From the IMG/VR virus record IMGVR_UViG_3300032069_000038, positions 1 to 32,624 of that record: 32,624 nucleotides of DNA, one strand, 5' to 3'. The DNA is from a virus. Position 1 is the stretch's first letter; every line of letters begins with the position of its first letter. The translations under genes were made by a program, and so were the position numbers. Under the pieces are notes generated by a model that saw only the letters and a program-made list of their open reading frames with translations, made no database searches and was not told where the DNA came from. Shown one piece after another: positions 16,779 through 31,921 of the stretch.

Positions 16779-19700
16779 CTACTTCCTCTTCTTGGTCTCA
16801 AAAATCTCTCGTGCCACCAGTTGTTTCATAGCCGGTCCAACTTCCTTTAGGAATCCATCTACATCATGGATCTCATGCAAATCACCAAAAGTCATGTGTA
16901 CCACAACATTAGAGCCTACAGCGCTACCGGTATCGGGGATCAGTTTACTAGCAAACTGGCCTTTACTACCAGACAACCCTTTAGCCAAACTATCGCTGTC
17001 TATAACCATGTCACCCTTACTAACATTGGTCATACCTCCTGTCAGAGCCTCAAAATCACCCTCAGCTACAGGAGCTGATTTAATAGGTCCTTTTACTTTT
17101 TCACTCGCTACTGGTATAGTGTCTATTGCCTTATTTAAATCATCCAACTTCCTATTTGTTTCAGCTATTTCAGCTCTAGCACTACCAGACTCTGCCTCCG
17201 ATAACTTCCCACCTTTTAACTTAGCTTCCAGCTCACTCTTTCTATCCTCTAACTTAGTTTTTGTTTCAATATCTCCCTGCGCCTCCTGAGCTCCTTTAAG
17301 CACAGCTCCAGACGCTAAATCAAATCTATCTTTAGACAATACATTTTTAGTGTTTTCTTGCTCCTTTATCTGCTCCTTCGTCTGATCTATCTGCTCCCCA
17401 AGAATTTTTTTCTCCGCTGGACTTACTGTCTTTTCATATTTTTCCTGTAGATCATAGAGTTTTTTCTGCAGCAGTGTCTGAGCTTTAGATGCTGCTACTA
17501 GTTTGTCATAATCTCCTCCTTTTTTCATATACTCTTCATCTGTAACAAAAGATTCCGGTTTACCAGTAGCCCATTTCTGAAGAAGACCAAATATGCCTCC
17601 TACTCTTTGTGCAGTAACCATTGCCGCCTCATTAGCCATATCCTGGAGTTTACCACCACCAGCCATAGCTGCCATATATTTCATGTTCTCTTTACCGATA
17701 CCGATAAAATCTTCAAAAGTAGCAGTATTTTTTACCAGCTCATCGATACGTTTACCTTGATCAGCAGCCCCACTTTTAAAGCTCACTCCCGTCCTAAATA
17801 ACTCCTCCGCATATTTTCTCATATCCTCAGCATTAAGATGTACTCCTGAAACTGCTGCATCTAAAGCAAAAGCATTCTTTTTAAATTGATCTATAAAATC
17901 CTCTATGTCCATACCTAGTTCACCACCGTTAGATACAAAATCCTTCAATGTAGATCTCATCTGATCCTCATCTATAACATCTCCCTTTTTTATGCTCAGC
18001 ATAAATCCACTCATGACCTCTTTTAGCTTATCGCTGCTCTCCTTAGGAATTTTTTCGAACTTATCTCCAATGAACTCAGCTGACTTTTTAGCATCATCAA
18101 GAACTACCCTACCTGTCTCTAATAACTTAGTGAGAGCCTCTTTTGGTACTCCCGCGCTCTGTGCAAGTATTTCAGATTTTGCTAATAAATTGTCAGTGTC
18201 AAAAATATCATCTACTCCTACTTTTTTTAGGGCAGTTATCAGATAGTCAGCAGTTTTATCAGTCATATAATCCAAACCGGTGGCCAACGCTTGAATGTCG
18301 CCTTTGGCGTACGCTTCTATATTAATTCTCGCTCTTTTCTTATCATTCTTTTCCTGCTCTAATGCATGAGCTCTCTCTAGCTCACCCACGCGCTTAGCAG
18401 TAGCTATCTGATCGTCTAGTACATCTTCTTCCTTTTTTAACTGCTCAGCTCTCAATGACATGTCCTCTCTTACCTTTTTCTCTCCTACTATCTGAATAAA
18501 TCCCATTTTCTTAGTGGTATCCATACCTTTAAACACATTCATTATATCTTGAGCCTCTTTAGCTGCATCTTTAAAGGGCATCGCCCCTCTTTCAGCAAAC
18601 GTCCTTAGGAGAGCTGACGTACTTTTTAAATAGTTTCCATAATATGCTAGAGAGTCTGTAGCCGCAGTCACCGCGTCATAAAATTTCTGAGAGCTGATAC
18701 CAGCTATAGTTGCATCATAGGCCATAGCTTCCATAGATTTACTAACATCATCCAGGGATGATTTCAAATTTACCATCTGATCTGCTATCATGCCTCCCAT
18801 AGCGCTCATATCCACACCAAAATCTTTACTGAGCTTCGTAGCTTCTAAAATCACTTCATTATAACCGCCTTCTACTCTTTTACCCACTCCCTGTAAAGAT
18901 AGACCACCAGCAGACATAGCGTCAAAAAGCCCCATTATATCTTCAGATTTTAAACCATATTTCAAGTTACGATTCATATCAAACACGGCATCTGTAAAAG
19001 TCTTCATACTTTTACTGACATCTTTCATAGCCACTGTGGGGCCATACATTTTAACGAAAGACTTATTATACTCCTTTACAAACTTGTTAAGCTCATTGAC
19101 AGTTTTTATTATCATGGTCACTGCTGATATAATCAATCCTATCCACCCTATCTTACCGAGCATCCCCATCGCAGTACCTAAAGTGCCAAACATGCCAGCA
19201 GCACCTTTCGCTCCTTTTCCTACTCCTCCCAGAGTAGCCGATAGATCTTTTAATTTTCCTATGGTCTCACCTATACCCTTAGCGGCTTCTAAATGCCCTC
19301 CTATACCTCTAGCGGATTTAAGTGCCCTAAATTTTCCACCTAACTCTTTGGTTAGTTCGTATCTTTCTTGTTTAGCAAATTTTAAGGATTCTCCCTTAGC
19401 TCTAATGCCCTCTTCTGCCTTAACAAATTTTCCTCCCCTACCACGAAACTTACCCCCCGGTTCTTCTTTATAACTAGGCAAAAACTCCTTTAAATACTCT
19501 CTATACTGTTCTCTTTTGACCTCTGATCCTAAAGCCTTACCCCTAAGGCCTTTTCTAGTCTCTGCTACGCCCTCTTCACCTCTTATCCCTTTCTGCCTCT
19601 TTTTATACTCAGTCTCATTTATTCTACCTGTTTTATAGAGTACCTCTAAACTTTCCTCCTGAAGCCTAAGCCTATGCTCCAGAGCAACATTATACTCCTT

Positions 19701-23870: not shown

Positions 23871-23908
23871 AAAAAGTAGTGGTTTGTTTCCTGGTTTACA
23901 ACGACTAC
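23871..23908 (-). terminator. Possible weak terminator after the sheath gene
   Basis: On the minus strand GTAGT (23908-23904, including the TAG stop) can pair with ACTAC (23880-23876), with an inner TTGT/ACAA pair, and is followed by five T (23875-23871). The stem is short with an internal loop, so it may only attenuate. It lies between the sheath stop and the next ribosome site. Confidence 0.3.
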
Positions 23909-26859
23909 AGACTCTGTCTCAGGTTAAGTGTCACAACAATCCAGTTCAACGGGAACACAGGACTGTAATAAGCTTCCACATCTAACGTGCTCGGATCGCT
24001 GGTATTCTGTGTGACATTGATACCCTTGAAATCCACAATGATCTCATTCTGCTTAAGACCCTTGAAATACGATCCCACAGTATCCTTAACCTGGGACTGC
24101 ATCTTAGGCAGATTCTTAGATCCAATGTACCTGTTGAGAGCAGTACGCACACCCTGCTGAATGAAATGCTTTACCTCAACAATACGAGGATCCCTGGTGA
24201 GAGATGTGGACATATCAGTGGTCAAATACATCAAAATCCTAATGACTGGAGTCTGCTCCTCAAGAACCGTACAACCAGAATTAGCCACTAACGACGCCGT
24301 CACATTGTCCAATCTCCGATACAGACGCTTGAACCCTACAATCGTAGAATTCGTAAGCGGTGTAGCAATATCCGTGGCAGGAGACACATCTAGTCCCGCT
24401 ACCGCGGCAGCCACCAACGAGCCGTCCACGATATACTCCACTTCGTTACCAAACGTATCCGTGATACCTATCACAGCACCATCAGGATACACCATGGTAA
24501 CTTTCTCAGTAGCCAGATTTTTACACTGAGAGATTACTTGATCCGACGTAGTACCTACAGGGAAACCTCCCACACTCGTACGCTCGTTCCTGTAACGCAT
24601 GCTCGACTGGATTGCATTCGAGGTCTTTAGATAGCTCAGGATCTCAGGATCCGTCGACAGTGGCTGCATCATAGAAGGACGCAGACCGTTGGGCATCGGC
24701 TCATTAAAGGCATCAATACCTGCGATATAGTCATCGATCGATGCGTCCGTACCACCCGGTACTCTCAGGATCTGTTTAAGGGCCACTGCCCGAGCCCCAT
24801 TGATGAACGCCAGATTGGCTGCGATAGTGAGCTTGTTGTTGATATCGACTGGACCAAAGTACTTGATCACATCACGTAGACTCGTGAGGAATCTCGTGGT
24901 ATAGTCAGTCTTTACCTTGTCGAAAGTGGCATAGTACATGTCCCCAACATTAGGCTCATTACCACTCTTATTGAATGTACTGATAGTCTCAGTATTCCCG
25001 ACATCACACCCTACCGTATCAGTGATCGTAAGATTGATACCCGGGATGACCTTCCGGATACTACCACCAGCAGGCACGAAAGAACCCACATCGATATACA
25101 ATCTTGGAGTGCCACTAACTGTAGGATCTCCAATGTTGTATTTGTAGACAGTACCGCCAGCAGGGACGAATGAAGGACTAAAGGTCACTCTGAAACCAGT
25201 AGTAGGATCGATATAAGTCTTACCAATCACACCCTTATTCTGATTGTAGGTCGTAACAGAACCTGTACGGCCTGCACCAGCAGGACTTACCGTATCGGAA
25301 GTCACAGTAAATATTCCATTAATACCAAAAGTAATCGTTACCTGCTCTGAAGAAGCAGTTATTGGATTGATCTCTGCATTAAAAGTACCAGCGTACGTAG
25401 GAGAACCGGATACCAGACTCACCTGCAAAGCGTTACCACTAAGAGTAGAGGCGAGTGTATACTTTCCTACACCCATAGCACCAGTAGCTCGGACGGTCAA
25501 AATCCAGCTATCATCTATTACGTTGTTCTCATAATAGGTGACATAGACATGCTCAGTACCCGAAGGAGCTGCCGCCAGAGTAATCTTACTACCGCTAACT
25601 GAAAGAATCTGTACAGGACTTGACGTATAAGCCGTCGTAAAATCCGGACCCATATACGCTATCATGAGTGTAGGATCTTCTGTGGATTCTCCAGTACCAT
25701 GACCGTCTACAGGTGCCGTAGGTAGTGTGAAAACACGATTGGTACCATCGTTAAAGGGCAGATTACCCTCACTAGGATCCAAAGCACCAGGCACCAAAGG
25801 AGCCGCTACTCTACCATATACCTTAGTATCCGTGACAGATGCTATAGTATTATTGATGACAGGAGTAGTAGCGAGAGTATAAAGACCCTGAGTAACCTGA
25901 TAAGAAGTCCCCCAGTGGAGCTCATTATCATCAGAGAGTACGCAGTCGGTACCCATCGAGAAATCCGAGGTATCCTGGCTGAGTCCTACATTGACCACCC
26001 TATTCACAACTGAGGCAGGGAGGATATCATAGGTATCCTGCCACAGGTTGGTGAAATAAGTGATGGTCACTACAGCTCCACCCGCAGGAGCATCTTTAAG
26101 AACGAATAACCCATGTGCACCATCCAGCGCTGTGATAGTCACACCAGCAGAGGACCCATTGACCTTAGCCTCTATAACCTTTACCGTACGCGTGTACTCA
26201 TCCCCTGGGGTGCTGCTGGGAGTCGGGTCGTAAAGGATAGTCACAGTACCGTTTATGTTGGCGTCCGTAGCAGAACTACCACTGTTATCACCTGTCACTA
26301 TACGAGCACTGTGTACTTTAAACACCTTGTTCGAGCCATCAGCCTGATTGGAGATGACTTCATTCTCAATGTACGTATCGCGTCTCTTGAAATAATAGTT
26401 TACACGTACATCATCAGTAGCTGTCGGGATAACTACCAGGGTCACCTGCCCAGTCAGGCCGTTCACGGCATTGACTGCCACATTCTGACCATTGACTGTG
26501 ACAATGACGTTAGAGGGGAGTGTCGCCACTCTACCTGTACCATCCCCGAGGACGATAGGGAAAACAGCTACGCGGAACGAATTTACATCACCCTGTACTC
26601 CACCTATCCAACCAGGAGTAAATCCAGAAGGAGTAGCTACAGACTGACTCGTAGGTACTGCTTCATCGAGGATAATATTGTCGGCTATAGCGGAGGACCC
26701 ACGTATCATCTCAAAATTGGCTACACGGATCTGCTCAGCTGAGGTACCAACAAAAGCGGGGAATCGTATATCACCAGCAGTAGAGGCTCCCGCAGCTTCA
26801 TTGATAGTCTGAACGAATACACCAGGGAAAGCAAAACTCTCTAAAGGTCCTATAGCCAT
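23905..26859 (-). CDS. Contractile tail sheath protein, enlarged (984 aa)
   Basis: The N-terminus (FAFPGVFVQTINEAAGAST, then FPAFVGTSAEQI) and C-terminus (FIQQGVRTALNRYIGSK, NEIIVDFKGINVTQ, ending FPLNWIVVTLNL) are typical of phage sheath proteins; the core fold resumes near 645 with TDYTTRFLTSLRDVIKYFG. Between about 80 and 640 lie inserted beta domains, including three similar modules at about 117-157, 228-269 and 397-444, each ending in a V-x-V/I-x-Y-Y/F strand. These resemble modules in the gene at 27514-28965 and in the giant ORF. Usual sheaths are about 400-700 residues, so outer domains have been added. The sheath contracts to drive the tube into the cell. A strong AAAGGAG site precedes the ATG, and a repeated promoter-like motif lies 93 bases upstream. 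Codons favour ATC/ATT. Confidence 0.92.
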   Translation of the reverse strand: MAIGPLESFAFPGVFVQTINEAAGASTAGDIRFPAFVGTSAEQIRVANFEMIRGSSAIADNIILDEAVPTSQSVATPSGFTPGWIGGVQGDVNSFRVAVFPIVLGDGTGRVATLPSNVIVTVNGQNVAVNAVNGLTGQVTLVVIPTATDDVRVNYYFKRRDTYIENEVISNQADGSNKVFKVHSARIVTGDNSGSSATDANINGTVTILYDPTPSSTPGDEYTRTVKVIEAKVNGSSAGVTITALDGAHGLFVLKDAPAGGAVVTITYFTNLWQDTYDILPASVVNRVVNVGLSQDTSDFSMGTDCVLSDDNELHWGTSYQVTQGLYTLATTPVINNTIASVTDTKVYGRVAAPLVPGALDPSEGNLPFNDGTNRVFTLPTAPVDGHGTGESTEDPTLMIAYMGPDFTTAYTSSPVQILSVSGSKITLAAAPSGTEHVYVTYYENNVIDDSWILTVRATGAMGVGKYTLASTLSGNALQVSLVSGSPTYAGTFNAEINPITASSEQVTITFGINGIFTVTSDTVSPAGAGRTGSVTTYNQNKGVIGKTYIDPTTGFRVTFSPSFVPAGGTVYKYNIGDPTVSGTPRLYIDVGSFVPAGGSIRKVIPGINLTITDTVGCDVGNTETISTFNKSGNEPNVGDMYYATFDKVKTDYTTRFLTSLRDVIKYFGPVDINNKLTIAANLAFINGARAVALKQILRVPGGTDASIDDYIAGIDAFNEPMPNGLRPSMMQPLSTDPEILSYLKTSNAIQSSMRYRNERTSVGGFPVGTTSDQVISQCKNLATEKVTMVYPDGAVIGITDTFGNEVEYIVDGSLVAAAVAGLDVSPATDIATPLTNSTIVGFKRLYRRLDNVTASLVANSGCTVLEEQTPVIRILMYLTTDMSTSLTRDPRIVEVKHFIQQGVRTALNRYIGSKNLPKMQSQVKDTVGSYFKGLKQNEIIVDFKGINVTQNTSDPSTLDVEAYYSPVFPLNWIVVTLNLRQSL

Positions 26860-26951
26860 GTTTAAACTCCTTTAATCGTAGTTACCGTATTTTTGGATTA
26901 TTTTATTTTATGTTTCGTATATGCTATAGGTATCTTATTTAGGATCTGTAT

Positions 26952-26964
26952 ATTAATAGGTTAT
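26952..26964 (-). promoter_or_regulatory. Repeated ATAACCTATTAAT motif upstream of sheath (candidate promoter)
   Basis: The minus strand reads ATAACCTATTAAT, identical over 13 bases to the copy at 29007-29019, and shares ACCTATTAA with the copy at 27479-27487. It lies in the 109-base gap before the sheath, just after the FmdB-like stop. The rest of the gap is AT-rich with no clear hairpin. A phage-specific promoter element is the simplest reading. Confidence 0.5.
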
Positions 26965-26968
26965 AGGC

Positions 26969-27448
26969 CTACGCCTGTAAAATTGCTCCTGGTGCATCAA
27001 ACTGAGCCTCTCCCTTTTTTTCTCTCTCTGCCCTATGCTCCTGCAAAGCCGTCGAATACTCTTTTCTCAAACCCCTGTCTTTACTATCACCCAGATGCAT
27101 CAGAGGAGTATATTTCCCATCTGCATCCTTAGGTATATTCACGGGCGCTGGCTCTGCTCCACCCCATCTTTTTTTCTGACGCTCACTATATCTCTTCTTC
27201 CAGCGCTCATCGTATCCAGTCCACTTTTTCTCAGACTCAGCTCCTACTACCTTATCTATTTCTTTAGGACTATATATCGTATCTGTCCTGGCATCCAATG
27301 TCGTATTTATACCAAATGTCTCTGCTGCAGCACGAATCGCTTTACCATCACACAGATTACATTTACTATTCTTATCTCGATTATCGTACGATATCAATTC
27401 CTCAAAAATGTAACCGCATTTCTCGCATCGATACGTGTAGATCGGCAT
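26969..27448 (-). CDS. FmdB-type zinc-ribbon protein (159 aa)
   Basis: The N-terminus MPIYTYRCEKCGYIFEEL, with Cys at 8, 11, 30 and 33, is the FmdB/CxxC zinc-ribbon that begins P-x-Y-x-Y-x-C-x-x-C-G. The remaining ~110 residues are charged and helical (KWTGYDERWKKRYSERQKKR) with no recognised domain. FmdB proteins are small bacterial proteins of uncertain, possibly regulatory, role; in phages they occur among structural genes. The gene has AAGGAGAG before its ATG and its own upstream motif at 27479-27487. It could be a minor virion part or a phage-encoded regulator. The stop codon is TAG. Confidence 0.8.
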   Translation of the reverse strand: MPIYTYRCEKCGYIFEELISYDNRDKNSKCNLCDGKAIRAAAETFGINTTLDARTDTIYSPKEIDKVVGAESEKKWTGYDERWKKRYSERQKKRWGGAEPAPVNIPKDADGKYTPLMHLGDSKDRGLRKEYSTALQEHRAEREKKGEAQFDAPGAILQA

Positions 27449-27478
27449 GCTGACTCTCCTTGTTATATAGATATGGAT

Positions 27479-27487
27479 TTAATAGGT
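27479..27487 (-). promoter_or_regulatory. ACCTATTAA motif upstream of the FmdB-like gene (candidate promoter)
   Basis: The minus strand reads ACCTATTAA followed 7 bases later by TCTATAT, then the AAGGAG site and ATG 30 bases downstream of the motif. The 29007-29019 copy has TCTATAT at 8 bases spacing. The whole gap is 65 bases. Confidence 0.45.
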
Positions 27488-27513
27488 AAAAAAATATTAG
27501 ATGATTATTAGGC

Positions 27514-28965
27514 TCACATCACTCTGGCAAATCCCACTTTAGGGTATTTCACCTCAAACGGCACCGTGTAAGGCTGTAATTTCAGCTCCAACACTTTATT
27601 CTGGAGCGTCACTATATATGCTTTCTGATTTATATACTGATAAAGTTTCGTATCAAAATCCAAGATATCAGTATTAAACGCATCATACTTCTTCCACTCA
27701 GTCATAATCTGCATGTTCAGGCTGTTCTTATAGTATAGATCCCCAGTATTAGTATCAAACGCTTCCTCAGACTCCCCCGTAGGATCAAATTCCTCTATGG
27801 TCAAACCCTCCGATATCAACTGCTGCCTACGATTAGCCCATATGTAGTTTATGATATGATCCGTGAGATCCGGTAACTGTATAGGATCTTTAGCAAAAAC
27901 CTCTATCTCAAAAGACATCCTGTAATGCCCGCTACGCACCGAGGCCGCTGGCTCCCTCTTGGGATACACTATCACAACCATCTTCGTACCCACATCCAAC
28001 TGATTACTGAATGCCAGGATCACTCCCGGTAAAACCGTATTATCATAGTGGAACGGCTCAGGGATAGTAAAAGGACCCATAGTCGCTCCAGCCCACCGAT
28101 AGTTCGCAAATAGAGACGTACCTACAGGGAGAGGCTGCACGAAAGTTATCACACCCGCAGTAGTAATCGTATAGTCTAGACCCTTCTCCAGATAAATCTT
28201 GTTACTGCTACGAGTCTTGAGGGTATACAGTATATCGAAATCCCCGATCAGCCCCCCGTGTAACAGGCTGGCAGTAATCTCATGCCCTGTAGTCTCAGTT
28301 ATTACTTCCTCAGCGGTTACTTGATATAGCGGGTCTATCACATACTGCCCTGGAGCCACTATTTCCAGGTAGTACCTGCCAGGAGGTGTGAGATTATTGT
28401 AGTAGTAGCTGACCTTCAGGGTGTCCCCTATCACGGGAGCCTGAGGGAGTACGATCATGCCTTTTTGACCGTTCACGTACTCTGCGAATACAATCTGTGC
28501 CTGTGGGTCTGCGGCATGCTTCAACGTAAGAACGACCTGCCTGAAATTATCTGCAGGGACTGTGTTACCTTTACCGGATATGATGGGCTTGAGAGAGGTG
28601 TAAAACACTCTATTCTGACCGTAGGTCGAGGACCCTGCTATCTGACTGGAGAGGTCTTCCTCATGCTTCAGACCAGTCATATTCACGGCATCTTCCCAAA
28701 CCCACTCCAAACACCCTGCCGGGCTGTTTTCAGCCTTGGCGAGGGCGAGGTGGCTCTTGAGGGTACCTGCAGCGTCGTCCGCGGAGAGTTTTATCCTTGA
28801 AGAAGCAGCGGACTTCAACACAATTCCAATGGATACTCTTTCCGTCATTGGAAATTTATGGTAAACTTGAACCTTATCCCTATACACCTGGTGGCTATTA
28901 ACAGCCCCCTGGAGCTCACTCATAAGCCGCAGTTTTACTACGCGAAGCAGGTTATTATTTTCCAT
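27514..28965 (-). CDS. Beta-rich protein in the neck / tail-terminator slot (483 aa)
   Basis: The ATG at 28965 has only a weak AAAGA-type ribosome site. The N-terminus is helical (RVVKLRLMSELQGAVNSHQV). The middle holds beta modules like those in the sheath: VNGQKGMIVLPQAPVIGDTL then V-S-Y-Y-Y, and Y-L-E-K-G-L-D-Y-T-I with ITFVQPLPVGTSLFANYRW. The C-terminal third has GHYRMSFEIEVFAKDP, L-T-D-H-I-I-N-Y-I-W-A-N-R-R and a late beta-rich tail, a pattern reminiscent of tail-terminator/completion proteins that end the tube and sheath. It is the first gene after the nuclease insertion and precedes the sheath by one gene. I infer a neck or tail-terminator function from position; no family is firmly recognised. 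Confidence 0.6.
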   Translation of the reverse strand: MENNNLLRVVKLRLMSELQGAVNSHQVYRDKVQVYHKFPMTERVSIGIVLKSAASSRIKLSADDAAGTLKSHLALAKAENSPAGCLEWVWEDAVNMTGLKHEEDLSSQIAGSSTYGQNRVFYTSLKPIISGKGNTVPADNFRQVVLTLKHAADPQAQIVFAEYVNGQKGMIVLPQAPVIGDTLKVSYYYNNLTPPGRYYLEIVAPGQYVIDPLYQVTAEEVITETTGHEITASLLHGGLIGDFDILYTLKTRSSNKIYLEKGLDYTITTAGVITFVQPLPVGTSLFANYRWAGATMGPFTIPEPFHYDNTVLPGVILAFSNQLDVGTKMVVIVYPKREPAASVRSGHYRMSFEIEVFAKDPIQLPDLTDHIINYIWANRRQQLISEGLTIEEFDPTGESEEAFDTNTGDLYYKNSLNMQIMTEWKKYDAFNTDILDFDTKLYQYINQKAYIVTLQNKVLELKLQPYTVPFEVKYPKVGFARVM

Positions 28966-29006
28966 AGGATCTTTTCAGGAATGTAGTATGCAATATAGAG
29001 GAATAG

Positions 29007-29019
29007 ATTAATAGGTTAT
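29007..29019 (-). promoter_or_regulatory. Repeated ATAACCTATTAAT motif before 28965 gene (candidate promoter)
   Basis: The minus strand reads ATAACCTATTAAT, then TCTATAT 8 bases after the ACCTATTAA core. It sits 16 bases downstream of the terminator at 29035-29067 and 41 bases before the ATG at 28965, so a terminator-then-promoter arrangement separates the nuclease from the tail genes. Confidence 0.55.
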
Positions 29020-29034
29020 GTAGAGACGGGCAAC

Positions 29035-29067
29035 AAAAAGGGCAGCTACCTATACAAGTAGCTGCCC
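29035..29067 (-). terminator. Intrinsic terminator after the nuclease gene
   Basis: The minus strand forms a perfect 10-bp stem, GGGCAGCTAC with GTAGCTGCCC (29067-29058 with 29049-29040), an 8-base loop and then TTTTT. It begins 24 bases after the nuclease TGA. Confidence 0.85.
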
Positions 29068-29090: not shown

Positions 29091-30677
29091 TCACGCAGCC
29101 TTACGATACCTGAGGATAGCGTCAGACAGGATTTCTGGTATACGCTTGAAGTCTTTATAGCTTATCCTTAGCAAAGGTATCCCATTATCTGCACAGTATT
29201 TGTCTTTTAGGGCATCGTTATCTTTAAGCCGGTTAAAACGGGGCACAGCAGTACTCTGCTGCTGTGCCCCGAAAATAAAAGGCTCGAAATGCTGCGGGCC
29301 ATCAAACTCTATCAGCAAATTTTTACTTGGCAGATAAAAATCAAACCTTAGATATCCGTTATATCTACTCCTCAAATCTTTAAACACCAGCTCCCTTTTG
29401 TACCCTATGTTATTCTCTATCAGCCATTTTTGTATTGCCTTCTCACCTTTAGAGCTACTGCATAAAGGGCAGCCGTCTCCTTTTAAATGACCATTGGGGC
29501 TCTGCAAAAACACCCCATGTTTTTTACAAATTATCTTTACCTTACAACGACCATCAGTATATTCTACTAGAGAATAATCATATCCAGAATACGGATGCTT
29601 TATTTTGGCTTTACATATAAACTCTTCCGTACTTAATCTTGCCTTGTCAGCAGTAGCCTCTCTGCCACACTCATAGCACCCACCTCCATACAAATGAAAA
29701 TTAGTCCACTGCCAGAACTCTCCATGAATAGGGCATATTATACACACTTTTTTAGTTGTATTATTAGTACTTGTGTCACAGGCTACTTTTGAATAGTCGT
29801 ATTTGTAGCCATGAACAGAAATTGCCCTAGATATAAAATCTTGTACCGAAAAACCATTGTACTCACCTGATACCTCTGTGCTACATTTTAAACAGCCCTC
29901 ACTTTTTAAATGCATATTAGGGGTTTGCCAAAACTTCCCGTGCTTATTACAAACTATGCACACTTTTTTCTTACAATCAACATAGCCTACCAGAGAATAG
30001 TCATATTTATTACCATATTTTTCTTTCGCTTTACTAATAAAGTAGTCTTTACTGTGTCTAATACCAAAAGCAGATATTCTCCCGCATTTACGGCAACCCC
30101 CTCCGTTTAGATGGCTATCTGGGGATTGCCAGAATTTCCCATGAGAAGGGCATATTATGCATACTCTTTTTTTACACGTATCATATTTAACTAAAGAGTA
30201 ATCATACTTATCTCCATAAATAGAACGGGCATCTCTTATAAAATCATCAGTGGTTTTTCTTGAATCTATTCCTCTTTTCTCATCAGCGCATTTCGGGCAC
30301 CCATCACCTCGCATATGATTTTTAGGAGCCTGCCAGAACATTCCATGCGTAGGGCAACTAATACATACTTTAGTAAGTTGATTTACATAGCTTGCCATTA
30401 AATAATCATACTTATCTCCATGTTTATCAACGGCTCTTTTTAAAAAAGTTTCTGCAGCTAATCTAGTTTTTTTAGAGCAAGACAACTTGCCACATTTCGG
30501 GCACCCATTTGACAGCATATGATTATAGGGAGTCTGCAAAAAATCACCATGAATCCTACAAATGATAATAACTTTTGTGTCTACGCCCGCATAGGCTACC
30601 TTGCTATAGTCATATTTATTTCCATGCGTTTTATTAGCTCGCTCAATGAATTCTTCTCTACTTAGACGTCTGCTCAT
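29091..30677 (-). CDS. Nuclease with six zinc-ribbon repeats and a PD-(D/E)XK/Vsr-like domain
   Basis: The 528-aa protein has six repeats of about 60-66 residues (starting near 9, 75, 144, 210, 279 and 350). Each reads roughly F-I-x-x-A-x-x-x-H-G-x-K-Y-D-Y-S-x-V, then K-V-x-I-x-C-P-x-H-G-x-F-W-Q-x-P, ending H-L-x-x-x-G-C-x-x-C: a Cys/His zinc-binding module like DUF723. Residues 409-520 form a nuclease domain: GEK (E412), LRFDFYLP (D446), LLIEFDGPQHFE (E457, D459, H463) and YCADNGIPLLRISY, as in EDxHD/Vsr-like homing nucleases. The repeats probably bind DNA and the C-terminal domain cuts it. It stands between structural genes with its own leader and terminator, as a mobile free-standing endonuclease would. 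Weak AAAGAG ribosome site. Catalytic residues look intact, but a 13-bp hairpin lies inside the domain. Confidence 0.85.
   Translation of the reverse strand: MSRRLSREEFIERANKTHGNKYDYSKVAYAGVDTKVIIICRIHGDFLQTPYNHMLSNGCPKCGKLSCSKKTRLAAETFLKRAVDKHGDKYDYLMASYVNQLTKVCISCPTHGMFWQAPKNHMRGDGCPKCADEKRGIDSRKTTDDFIRDARSIYGDKYDYSLVKYDTCKKRVCIICPSHGKFWQSPDSHLNGGGCRKCGRISAFGIRHSKDYFISKAKEKYGNKYDYSLVGYVDCKKKVCIVCNKHGKFWQTPNMHLKSEGCLKCSTEVSGEYNGFSVQDFISRAISVHGYKYDYSKVACDTSTNNTTKKVCIICPIHGEFWQWTNFHLYGGGCYECGREATADKARLSTEEFICKAKIKHPYSGYDYSLVEYTDGRCKVKIICKKHGVFLQSPNGHLKGDGCPLCSSSKGEKAIQKWLIENNIGYKRELVFKDLRSRYNGYLRFDFYLPSKNLLIEFDGPQHFEPFIFGAQQQSTAVPRFNRLKDNDALKDKYCADNGIPLLRISYKDFKRIPEILSDAILRYRKAA
29239..29271 (-). 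repeat. Perfect 13-bp hairpin inside the nuclease ORF
   Basis: CGGGGCACAGCAG (29239-29251) is perfectly complementary to CTGCTGTGCCCCG (29259-29271) around a 7-base loop. On the coding strand it is followed by TTTTAACC, so it resembles an intrinsic terminator. It encodes residues 469-480 (FGAQQQSTAVPR) in frame, in the loop after the D-G-P-Q-H motif. It may attenuate nuclease transcription or be a small palindromic insertion. Confidence 0.85.
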
Positions 30678-30860
30678 TATAGTGCTCTTTAAAATAAAAC
30701 CGAGGCGGAGCTGGAAGACTCCTACAGAGATGACACCCTACAGAAAAGGCTATCTCTGACTCTCGGTTATGTTTGCTATCTATTACTCTGTATGAGAGGA
30801 TAGAGTACAGGCTTCCAGACCTATACATCTATAGCAGATAAATGAACAGATTATTACACA
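30678..30860 (-). other. Leader region before the nuclease, possible folded RNA
   Basis: The stretch holds no gene. Complementary pairs include AACCGAG/CTCGGTT (30698-30704, 30762-30768), CAGAGAT/ATCTCTG (30725-30731, 30752-30758), CTGGAAG/CTTCCAG (30711-30717, 30812-30818) and TACTCT/AGAGTA (30784-30789, 30802-30807). The first and third would cross as a pseudoknot. Seven-base pairs are expected by chance about once in such a length, so this is only suggestive. A nuclease promoter probably lies here, but no ACCTATTAA motif is present. Confidence 0.35.
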
Positions 30861-30862
30861 AT

Positions 30863-30890
30863 AAAAAGGGGCCCGTGTTTCTACGGACCC
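30863..30890 (-). terminator. Intrinsic terminator after the actin-like gene
   Basis: On the minus strand GGGTCCGT (30890-30883) pairs with ACGGGCCC (30876-30869) including one G-U pair, with a 6-base loop, followed by C and TTTTT. It lies 24 bases after the TAG stop. Confidence 0.8.
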
Positions 30891-30913: not shown

Positions 30914-31921
30914 CTATGAATTCATGGCTGCTATAAGCAACCCTTTTGCTACGTCATTCAAAACATCTGATGCTAACTGTATACTTTTTATCGAAATAGG
31001 AAATACAGCTTCATACTCCTCTTTAAAAACTTTTGAAAAAAATTCAAGAAAATTCTTTGGCTTTGTGGTGCCGCCTGACAGTATCCATGGCAAAGATTCC
31101 GGCAGCTCTATTTTACTAGTATTCTTCTTGAACTCTTTGGAAATATTGTCAATGACATACCGTATCAGATTACGATAGTACATTATGATAGCTTCTCGCT
31201 CTCGGATTTGTTTAGGATCCCCTTCAATAGGATCTAACAAATTAACACCCTTTTCTTTTATTGTCATTAACCTAGTAGCAGTAGATCCTACGGCTCGTGC
31301 TGCAGAAGAATCTATCCAATCCCCACTACGAGATAGCGAGAAAGCCATACCTACCATAGTCTGATACACTAACGCCGTGTTAACCATCCCGGCTCCGAAA
31401 CTGGTTGCTAATGCTGTAAATCCACAATTCGAGCAGTTCGAGAACACGAGTGCAGCAGCCTCGTTAAGTGCTGTCGCCTTGCGACCATCTATACTCTCTA
31501 TGATTTTACGGAGCATGGCTTCATGATATATGACATCCATTTCAGAATCAACAGACTTCGCAGGAATAGAAAAAAATACATTTTCATTATCTATTTTAGA
31601 TTTAGGAAGAATATTTCTAAGCAAAGTAACTAGGATTCTCTCCGCGTCATGCTCTCCCGGAGATATAACTCCTGCATGTAAAGGCCTACGCGTCTCGCGT
31701 TTTAGTAGGTTCGAAATATTGACCGCTGCATCCCCAACTACTATAATGTCTTTTCCGTCCTGTATATAAGACACATTAGACATTTTAAGCATATTCAAAA
31801 TACTACCATCTTCTTCAATGTCTATAAATGCATCCCGGATACTTTTAACTTGCGTCTGTCCACTTTCATCCTGGGTAGCTGCTGCAAGCCAACAGGTACC
31901 GATGTCAAGTCCGATTCCCAT
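30914..31921 (-). CDS. Actin-like ATPase (ParM/MreB superfamily), 335 aa
   Basis: Actin-fold motifs appear in order: phosphate-1 GLDIGTCWLA (4-13), connect-1 ALNEAAALVF (151-160), phosphate-2 SFGAGMVNTALV (174-185), GDWIDSS (200-206), and adenosine WILSGGTTKPKNF (279-291). Length equals ParM and MreB. In the phosphate-2 loop the canonical Asp (D-x-G-x-G) is replaced by Ser174, so ATP hydrolysis may be altered. Such proteins polymerise to move DNA or position structures; phage examples include actin-like Alp proteins. The ribosome site AGGAGGT is strong, with a 6-base spacer, and overlaps the TAG of the preceding gene. The two genes form one unit ended by a terminator. A virion role is unlikely; cell-internal DNA or capsid positioning is inferred. 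Confidence 0.85.
   Translation of the reverse strand: MGIGLDIGTCWLAAATQDESGQTQVKSIRDAFIDIEEDGSILNMLKMSNVSYIQDGKDIIVVGDAAVNISNLLKRETRRPLHAGVISPGEHDAERILVTLLRNILPKSKIDNENVFFSIPAKSVDSEMDVIYHEAMLRKIIESIDGRKATALNEAAALVFSNCSNCGFTALATSFGAGMVNTALVYQTMVGMAFSLSRSGDWIDSSAARAVGSTATRLMTIKEKGVNLLDPIEGDPKQIREREAIIMYYRNLIRYVIDNISKEFKKNTSKIELPESLPWILSGGTTKPKNFLEFFSKVFKEEYEAVFPISIKSIQLASDVLNDVAKGLLIAAMNS

Follow-up and report, generated by a model that had tools for sequence, protein, structure and literature searches.

We examined a 32,624-nucleotide stretch of viral DNA (positions 1 to 32,624 of IMG/VR virus record IMGVR_UViG_3300032069_000038, hereafter the window) in which an A+T-rich element, very probably a phage-specific promoter, recurs in the gaps between genes. 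All genes in the window lie on the minus strand. The tail sheath gene (23905–26859, minus strand; 984 amino acids; Pfam PF17482, 3.5e-9) heads the tail operon, and upstream of it lie genes for a Zn-ribbon protein (26969–27448, minus strand; 159 amino acids; Pfam PF09723, 7.6e-11) and a tail-terminator-like protein (27514–28965, minus strand; 483 amino acids). The latter resembles a Tunturi_5 protein annotated as a tail terminator, with 21% identity over 156 amino acids (E = 4e-9, single comparison) and matching gene order.

The initial annotation of the window described a short motif shared by three successive gaps. Its 13-base match, ATAACCTATTAAT, is found at 26952–26964 and 29007–29019 on the minus, coding strand, and a 9-base copy, ACCTATTAA, lies at 27479–27487 (minus strand). 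These copies fall upstream of genes as described, in the gaps before the sheath, tail-terminator-like and Zn-ribbon genes, and TCTATAT is present 7–8 bases beyond two of them. ACCTATTAA occurs four times versus 0.52 expected from shuffling, a count reached in only 1 of 100 shuffles; three occurrences lie in gaps (26953–26961, 27479–27487 and 29008–29016) and one inside a gene (17080–17088). Within the window alone, three short copies in about 900 non-coding bases amount to weak to modest evidence for a motif. The repeat is real, but 9–13 bases is too short a description: it is one end of a family-wide, 16-letter element, TAATAATCTnYTAATAt.

Four full elements are present in the window, all on the minus strand. 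The first, CTATAACCTATTAATATA (26949–26966; central C at 26959; 14.3 bits), precedes the tail-sheath operon, 100 bases from the ATG. The second, TAATAATCATCTAATATT (27493–27510; central C at 27503; 17.8 bits), begins 4 bases past the stop codon of the preceding gene and lies 55 bases from the ATG of the Zn-ribbon gene. It is located 16 bases upstream of the 9-base copy at 27479–27487, which is not an element itself (<6 bits) and instead falls near the expected weak second box (CTAT) of the 27503 promoter; the second-box signal is at index 15–19, where the index counts bases downstream of the central C of an element. The third, ACATAACCTATTAATCTA (29004–29021; central C at 29014), stands 49 bases from the ATG of the tail-terminator-like gene, is followed by a CTATAT second box, and scores 11.5 bits, remaining below 12 bits under a position weight matrix trained only on other phages. 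A fourth element, TAATAATCTGTTCATTTA (30839–30856; central C at 30849; 15.4 bits), had been overlooked in the initial annotation and precedes a structured RNA and an HNH-type open reading frame (ORF).

We analyzed the motif in 16 contigs, the window included, from related jumbo phages in IMG/VR. A simple heuristic script called the genes, whose starts are therefore approximate; any of the contigs may be a fragment from an uncultured phage, and the relatives are non-independent samples. The nearest named relatives of the window sheath are LR745208, a 485 kb uncultured phage (32.7% identity), and the tail sheath of the acidobacterium phage Tunturi_5 (31.2%), with approximately 25% identity to phage G and mycobacteriophages. 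IMG/VR holds many nearer relatives, among them contigs of 141–259 kb. A megablast search of the window against phage records gave no match, nor did a search for a host in which the sheath was compared with bacterial and archaeal genomes.

Unsupervised expectation maximization (EM) on 657 upstream gaps of the 16 contigs returned TAATAATCTaTTAATAt as the top motif, present in about 31% of gaps and ahead of the Shine–Dalgarno sequence. Real training gaps gave 850.6 bits versus 126.7 bits for shuffled ones. At a threshold of at least 13 bits, the motif occurs at 186 sites in sense gaps, 5 on the opposite gap strand, and 30 in coding DNA. A motif trained on five phages and scored on the remaining phages hit sense gaps 76 times (3.05/kb), the opposite gap strand twice (0.091/kb), and coding sequence 19 times (0.018/kb). 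Its density in sense upstream gaps is thus ~33-fold that on their opposite strand and ~170-fold that in coding DNA. Position is conserved as well: a TAATAnTCTnTTAATAT-like sequence lies upstream of the sheath gene at roughly the same place in most relatives, scoring at least 13.8 bits at the orthologous place in 13 of the 14 with enough upstream sequence. Orthologous elements precede the Zn-ribbon gene in 14/14 relatives and the tail-terminator-like gene in 12/14; in the same orthologous-place comparison, none was found before the volactin gene or a 228-amino-acid gene across the relatives. The box itself varies among phages, reading TAATTAT in G011 and G014 and TAATACT in G012.

Placement relative to the direction of transcription is biased, with the motif in 125 of 275 with-flow gaps and 3 of 35 against-flow gaps (p = 1.4e-5). 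EM on gaps without the motif recovered a second class, cTTGAa-N17-TATATTa, which is a sigma70-type promoter; a first pass had given only the Shine–Dalgarno sequence until the gap ends were trimmed. The two classes rarely coincide. With-flow gaps contain the late motif only in 121 cases, the sigma70-type only in 16, and both in 4, while the corresponding numbers for against-flow gaps are 2, 12, and 1. Counts of the simple string GTATATT provide a fairer comparison because the sigma70 model was trained on motif-free gaps, and they show 1/125 with-flow gaps with the motif, 13/150 with-flow gaps without it, and 14/32 against-flow gaps without it. The motif is not itself a sigma70-type promoter (TTGACA-N17-TATAAT), as it differs from this pattern and a distinct sigma70-like class occupies motif-free gaps. 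Bacteroidetes-type promoters (TTTG/TAnnTTTG) are not enriched.

The genes and signals flanking the motif are consistent with a late promoter. The motif is present before sheath and tail genes and was found zero times before SNF2, DnaB, DNA polymerase A, and ligase clusters. Terminator-like hairpins lie just upstream of 11.4% of sites, compared with 4.1% for positions drawn at random from gaps. In the window, two promoters out of four show this arrangement: an intrinsic terminator (GGGCAGCTAC...GTAGCTGCCC and a T-run; 29034–29067, minus strand; stem of −21.8 kcal/mol) is immediately upstream of the 29014 promoter, and another (30863–30890, minus strand; stem of −14.4 kcal/mol, then a T-run) is immediately upstream of the 30849 promoter. 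The earlier proposal of a phage-specific late promoter is supported: far from being equally common in coding sequence, the motif is concentrated in upstream gaps, heads structural-gene units, often after terminators, seldom shares a gap with the sigma70-type class, and was not found ahead of the replication operon where stretches of it were inspected.

The distance from the central C to the ATG indicates both polarity and an approximate start site. This distance clusters at 21–25 bases (16 of 197 sites), with four sites at 26–33 and the others at 34 or more. A Shine–Dalgarno sequence is present in 1 of 17 cases in the short class (21–28) versus 78 of 93 at 34–60. Most of the short class belongs to three orthologous families (MSxDxKxQNxCDH, MSLITKxxKDF, and MMTxK), each with an N-terminus conserved from that ATG. 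These three families are apparently leaderless 21–25 bases after the motif, which fixes the polarity of the motif and narrows down where transcription can start. Where a gene does have a leader, its Shine–Dalgarno sequence starts no earlier than index ~22–23 (read by eye). Downstream of the motif, C is enriched at index 15–16, A at 19, and purines at 22–25, and the first helix of the structured RNA begins near index 20 (read by eye). Together, these limits suggest a start at about index 15–22. The box would then span −29 to −13 for a start at 22, or lie as near as −22 to −6 for a start at 15, and may be a long −35-type box with a weak −10 (CTWTA) or an extended −10-type box. The MSxDxKxQNxCDH family (249 amino acids; L095:14017–14763 in contig G009) has orthologs in G007, G008, G010, G011, G012, G014, and G016; its start codon, apparently leaderless, lies 22–25 bases past the promoter box in eight phages and 30 bases past it in G015.

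We then searched the contigs for a protein that could read this promoter. No T7-type RNA polymerase (PF00940) was found in the contigs, which may be incomplete, although the same search finds that of T7 itself. Cellular-type beta′ (PF04998) was likewise not found, with positive controls, in a search limited by the divergence of phiKZ-type subunits and the incompleteness of the contigs, and no plausible polymerase-sized protein contains an NADFDGD-like catalytic motif. All four large contigs do encode a syntenic candidate sigma factor directly after DNA polymerase A, in an SNF2 helicase–DnaB–polymerase operon; the G009 member lies at L098:3084–3779. Pfam matches to sigma regions 2 (0.0058) and 4 (0.022) are sub-threshold and occur in different members of the family, and one member matches PHROG 1740, 'RNA polymerase sigma factor' (2.8e-4). 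The AlphaFold2 model has a pLDDT of 65, and its top-ranked Foldseek matches are nearly all sigma factors, with probability up to 1.00. A PDB sequence search with a profile of the family gave no sigma match.

The candidate sigma gene and the motif also occur together. The exact motif is present in 7/7 contigs known to carry the candidate and in 0/6 outgroup records (G013, G022, G023, G024, T7, and Tunturi_5). Upstream in the region of the sigma operon, sigma70-like matches score 16.7 bits in G009 and 15.5 bits in G011, two sites that belonged to the training set of the sigma70 model, and a weaker 12.8 bits in G010. No sense-strand late motif was found upstream of this operon in the stretches scanned in G009, G010, and G011; one opposite-strand copy is present in G010. 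Tunturi_5 was rejected as a motif-bearing relative, as it has 58% G+C and no motif, and its annotated sigma factor (gp3) fails to align with the candidate. A second, RpoD-like sigma factor is encoded in G011 (L052:4855–5799, minus strand; Sigma70_r2, 1.3e-17) and was rejected as the reader because it was not found in other contigs. A few genes past the sigma gene in the G009 replication operon is an RRXRR and HNH protein (L098:5661–7022, G009 125661–127022; Pfam 4.7e-56 and 2.3e-12), which we take to be IscB-like.

The computations themselves show the element with its polarity and placement, how seldom it overlaps the sigma70-like class, and that the sigma-like gene is conserved. We infer promoter function, lateness, reading by this sigma factor, and the exact start site, and do so with differing confidence. 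Promoter function specific to the phage is highly probable. Assignment to the late class, based on gene content and orientation, is quite likely, and it is somewhat less firmly, though still reasonably, likely that a phage sigma factor with host core polymerase reads the motif. Taken as a whole, a phage-specific, mainly late promoter box read in this manner is the explanation we favor as likely. TTGAaa-N17-TATATT promoters would drive early and replication genes through host RNA polymerase carrying the housekeeping sigma factor. One product of the replication operon, encoded beside DNA polymerase A, would be a divergent sigma factor, small and with two domains, that would redirect host core polymerase to TAATAAT promoters heading the tail and other virion operons. 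The predicted recognition box of this promoter class, 5′-TAATAATCTnYTAATAt-(N5–6)-cyTWA, would serve mainly late (virion) genes, with transcription starting roughly 15–22 bases past the central C. More tentatively, the sequences may reflect a new phage sigma lineage that reads a 16-base A+T-rich box within −29 to −6 and not separated −35/−10 hexamers, with some leaderless virion mRNAs, in a clade whose nearest described relatives had been regarded as lacking both a polymerase and a sigma factor.

Several observations weigh against this proposal. In G012 the copy before the sheath gene is degenerate, and G010 has no copy before the tail-terminator-like gene. Some non-structural genes also carry the motif (G011, 0–95 kb), and the class is not exclusively structural. 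Matches of the sigma family are individually sub-threshold, and the structural model is weak: Foldseek E-values are no better than 3e-3, with TM ~0.3. Motif counts in G026 and G027 are barely above those of a reversed-pattern control, and because their sigma proteins are nearly identical to others, co-occurrence comprises about five independent cases. For the sigma operon of G012, in which only 140500–141000 was scanned, neither promoter class was found. Being a 32.6 kb fragment, the window does not itself show a sigma gene. Finally, the spacing is non-canonical, as the leaderless ATGs set the start too near for a standard −35/−10 layout.

This spacing bears on the strongest alternative, in which the promoter is read by an undetectably divergent phage RNA polymerase, or by host polymerase with another phage activator, and the sigma-like gene has some other role. 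Typical sigma −35 or −10 hexamers are shorter than this 16-base box, the leaderless ATGs allow at most 12–15 bases between box and start, unlike in canonical sigma70 promoters, and many predicted proteins are unannotated. However, the failure to find T7-type or cellular-type polymerases or an NADFDGD-like motif counts against a phage polymerase, and the separate sigma70-type class suggests that host polymerase is in use; we regard this alternative as improbable. A considerably less probable explanation is that the motif is no promoter and works either as a strand-specific RNA element of the 5′ leader or as an operator bound by a phage regulator, the true promoter lying nearby. Strand-specific placement in upstream gaps fits an RNA element as well, and the motif gaps are A+T-rich enough to conceal other promoters. 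Yet the fixed 21–25 bases to ATGs lacking a Shine–Dalgarno sequence in three families leave no room for a promoter in between, the motif often abuts an upstream terminator, and sigma70-type promoters are rare in motif gaps. An artifact of chance or of composition, suggested by A+T-rich gaps and a weak start from three short copies in ~900 bases, has a negligible probability, as it is refuted by the held-out enrichment; the opposite-strand control, the shuffles, and conservation of the motif between phages with 54–77% sheath identity also speak against it.

A sigma-directed late promoter would have precedents among known systems. In T4, host polymerase carrying the phage sigma factor gp55 uses a late promoter (TATAAATA) that is likewise phage-specific, A+T-rich, and located before virion genes, but its core is not matched by the 16-base box here (TAATAATCTnYTAATA). 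A region 4 is not known in gp55, whereas the candidate sigma appears to have both a region-2-like and a region-4-like domain. The proposed scheme resembles the SPO1 cascade, in which successive sigma factors and promoter classes act on host polymerase; SPO1 middle and late promoters are two-box promoters with a long spacer, and their sequences are unrelated to this motif. The T7-type promoter (TAATACGACTCACTATA) also begins with TAATA, and some copies here end in CTATA before the inferred start, but the element here is ~10 bases longer with another core, and no T7-type polymerase was found. Late promoters of the AR9/phiKZ non-virion polymerase (AACA-N6-TA/G; TATG) are a jumbo-phage class that likewise came to light through a motif over-represented upstream of genes (PMC5312081); their motifs differ from ours, and their reader is a multisubunit polymerase of the phage, of which the search of these possibly incomplete contigs found none. 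Group 2 jumbo phages recruit host polymerase via encoded sigma factors (PMC7824862) and resemble the phages here, in which no phage polymerase was found while a candidate sigma factor is present. Group 3 jumbo phages have been reviewed as having neither polymerase nor sigma factor (PMC7824862), yet the clade studied here, with DNA polymerase A and a sheath that resembles those of phage G and mycobacteriophages, has a divergent sigma-like gene.

A literature search for the letters TAATAATCT returned only papers with unrelated titles, and no description of the motif or sigma was found in the libraries and papers searched, although this kind of system is itself known from T4 and SPO1. The analysis names a candidate promoter–sigma pair for phages that combine DNA polymerase A with a sheath like that of phage G. 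It also makes a transcription map readable from sequence, with unit-start genes, probable early and late genes, and a probable switch protein.

The promoter further helps to reveal a conserved structured RNA unit. In the window, this RNA (30687–30833, minus strand) is located downstream of the fourth promoter and is supported by a covariance-model match and by compensatory pairs; its last helix is terminator-like. Related RNAs of ~150 bases are found elsewhere at L031:7693–7840, L020:12240–12390, and L067:12760–12915 (minus strand). Compensatory changes support the structure, and a pseudoknot and a kissing pair between the P1 and P5 loops could be written by hand in all four phages. The RNA has its own promoter copy, and in G003 and G015 it is preceded by similar sites. 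It had no match in Rfam, and a pattern search for further copies returned known members and apparent chance matches only. An HNH-type ORF lies downstream of the RNA in three phages, and G009 has the RNA without one. The window ORF (29091–30677, minus strand; 528 amino acids) contains DUF723 (Pfam, 3.5e-12) and repeated treble-clef fingers; it occurs in some relatives at varying distance from the promoter and looks mobile. The window also encodes a Volactin-family actin-like protein (30914–31921, minus strand; Pfam PF25216, 6.6e-55) that is conserved in 13 contigs of the clade.
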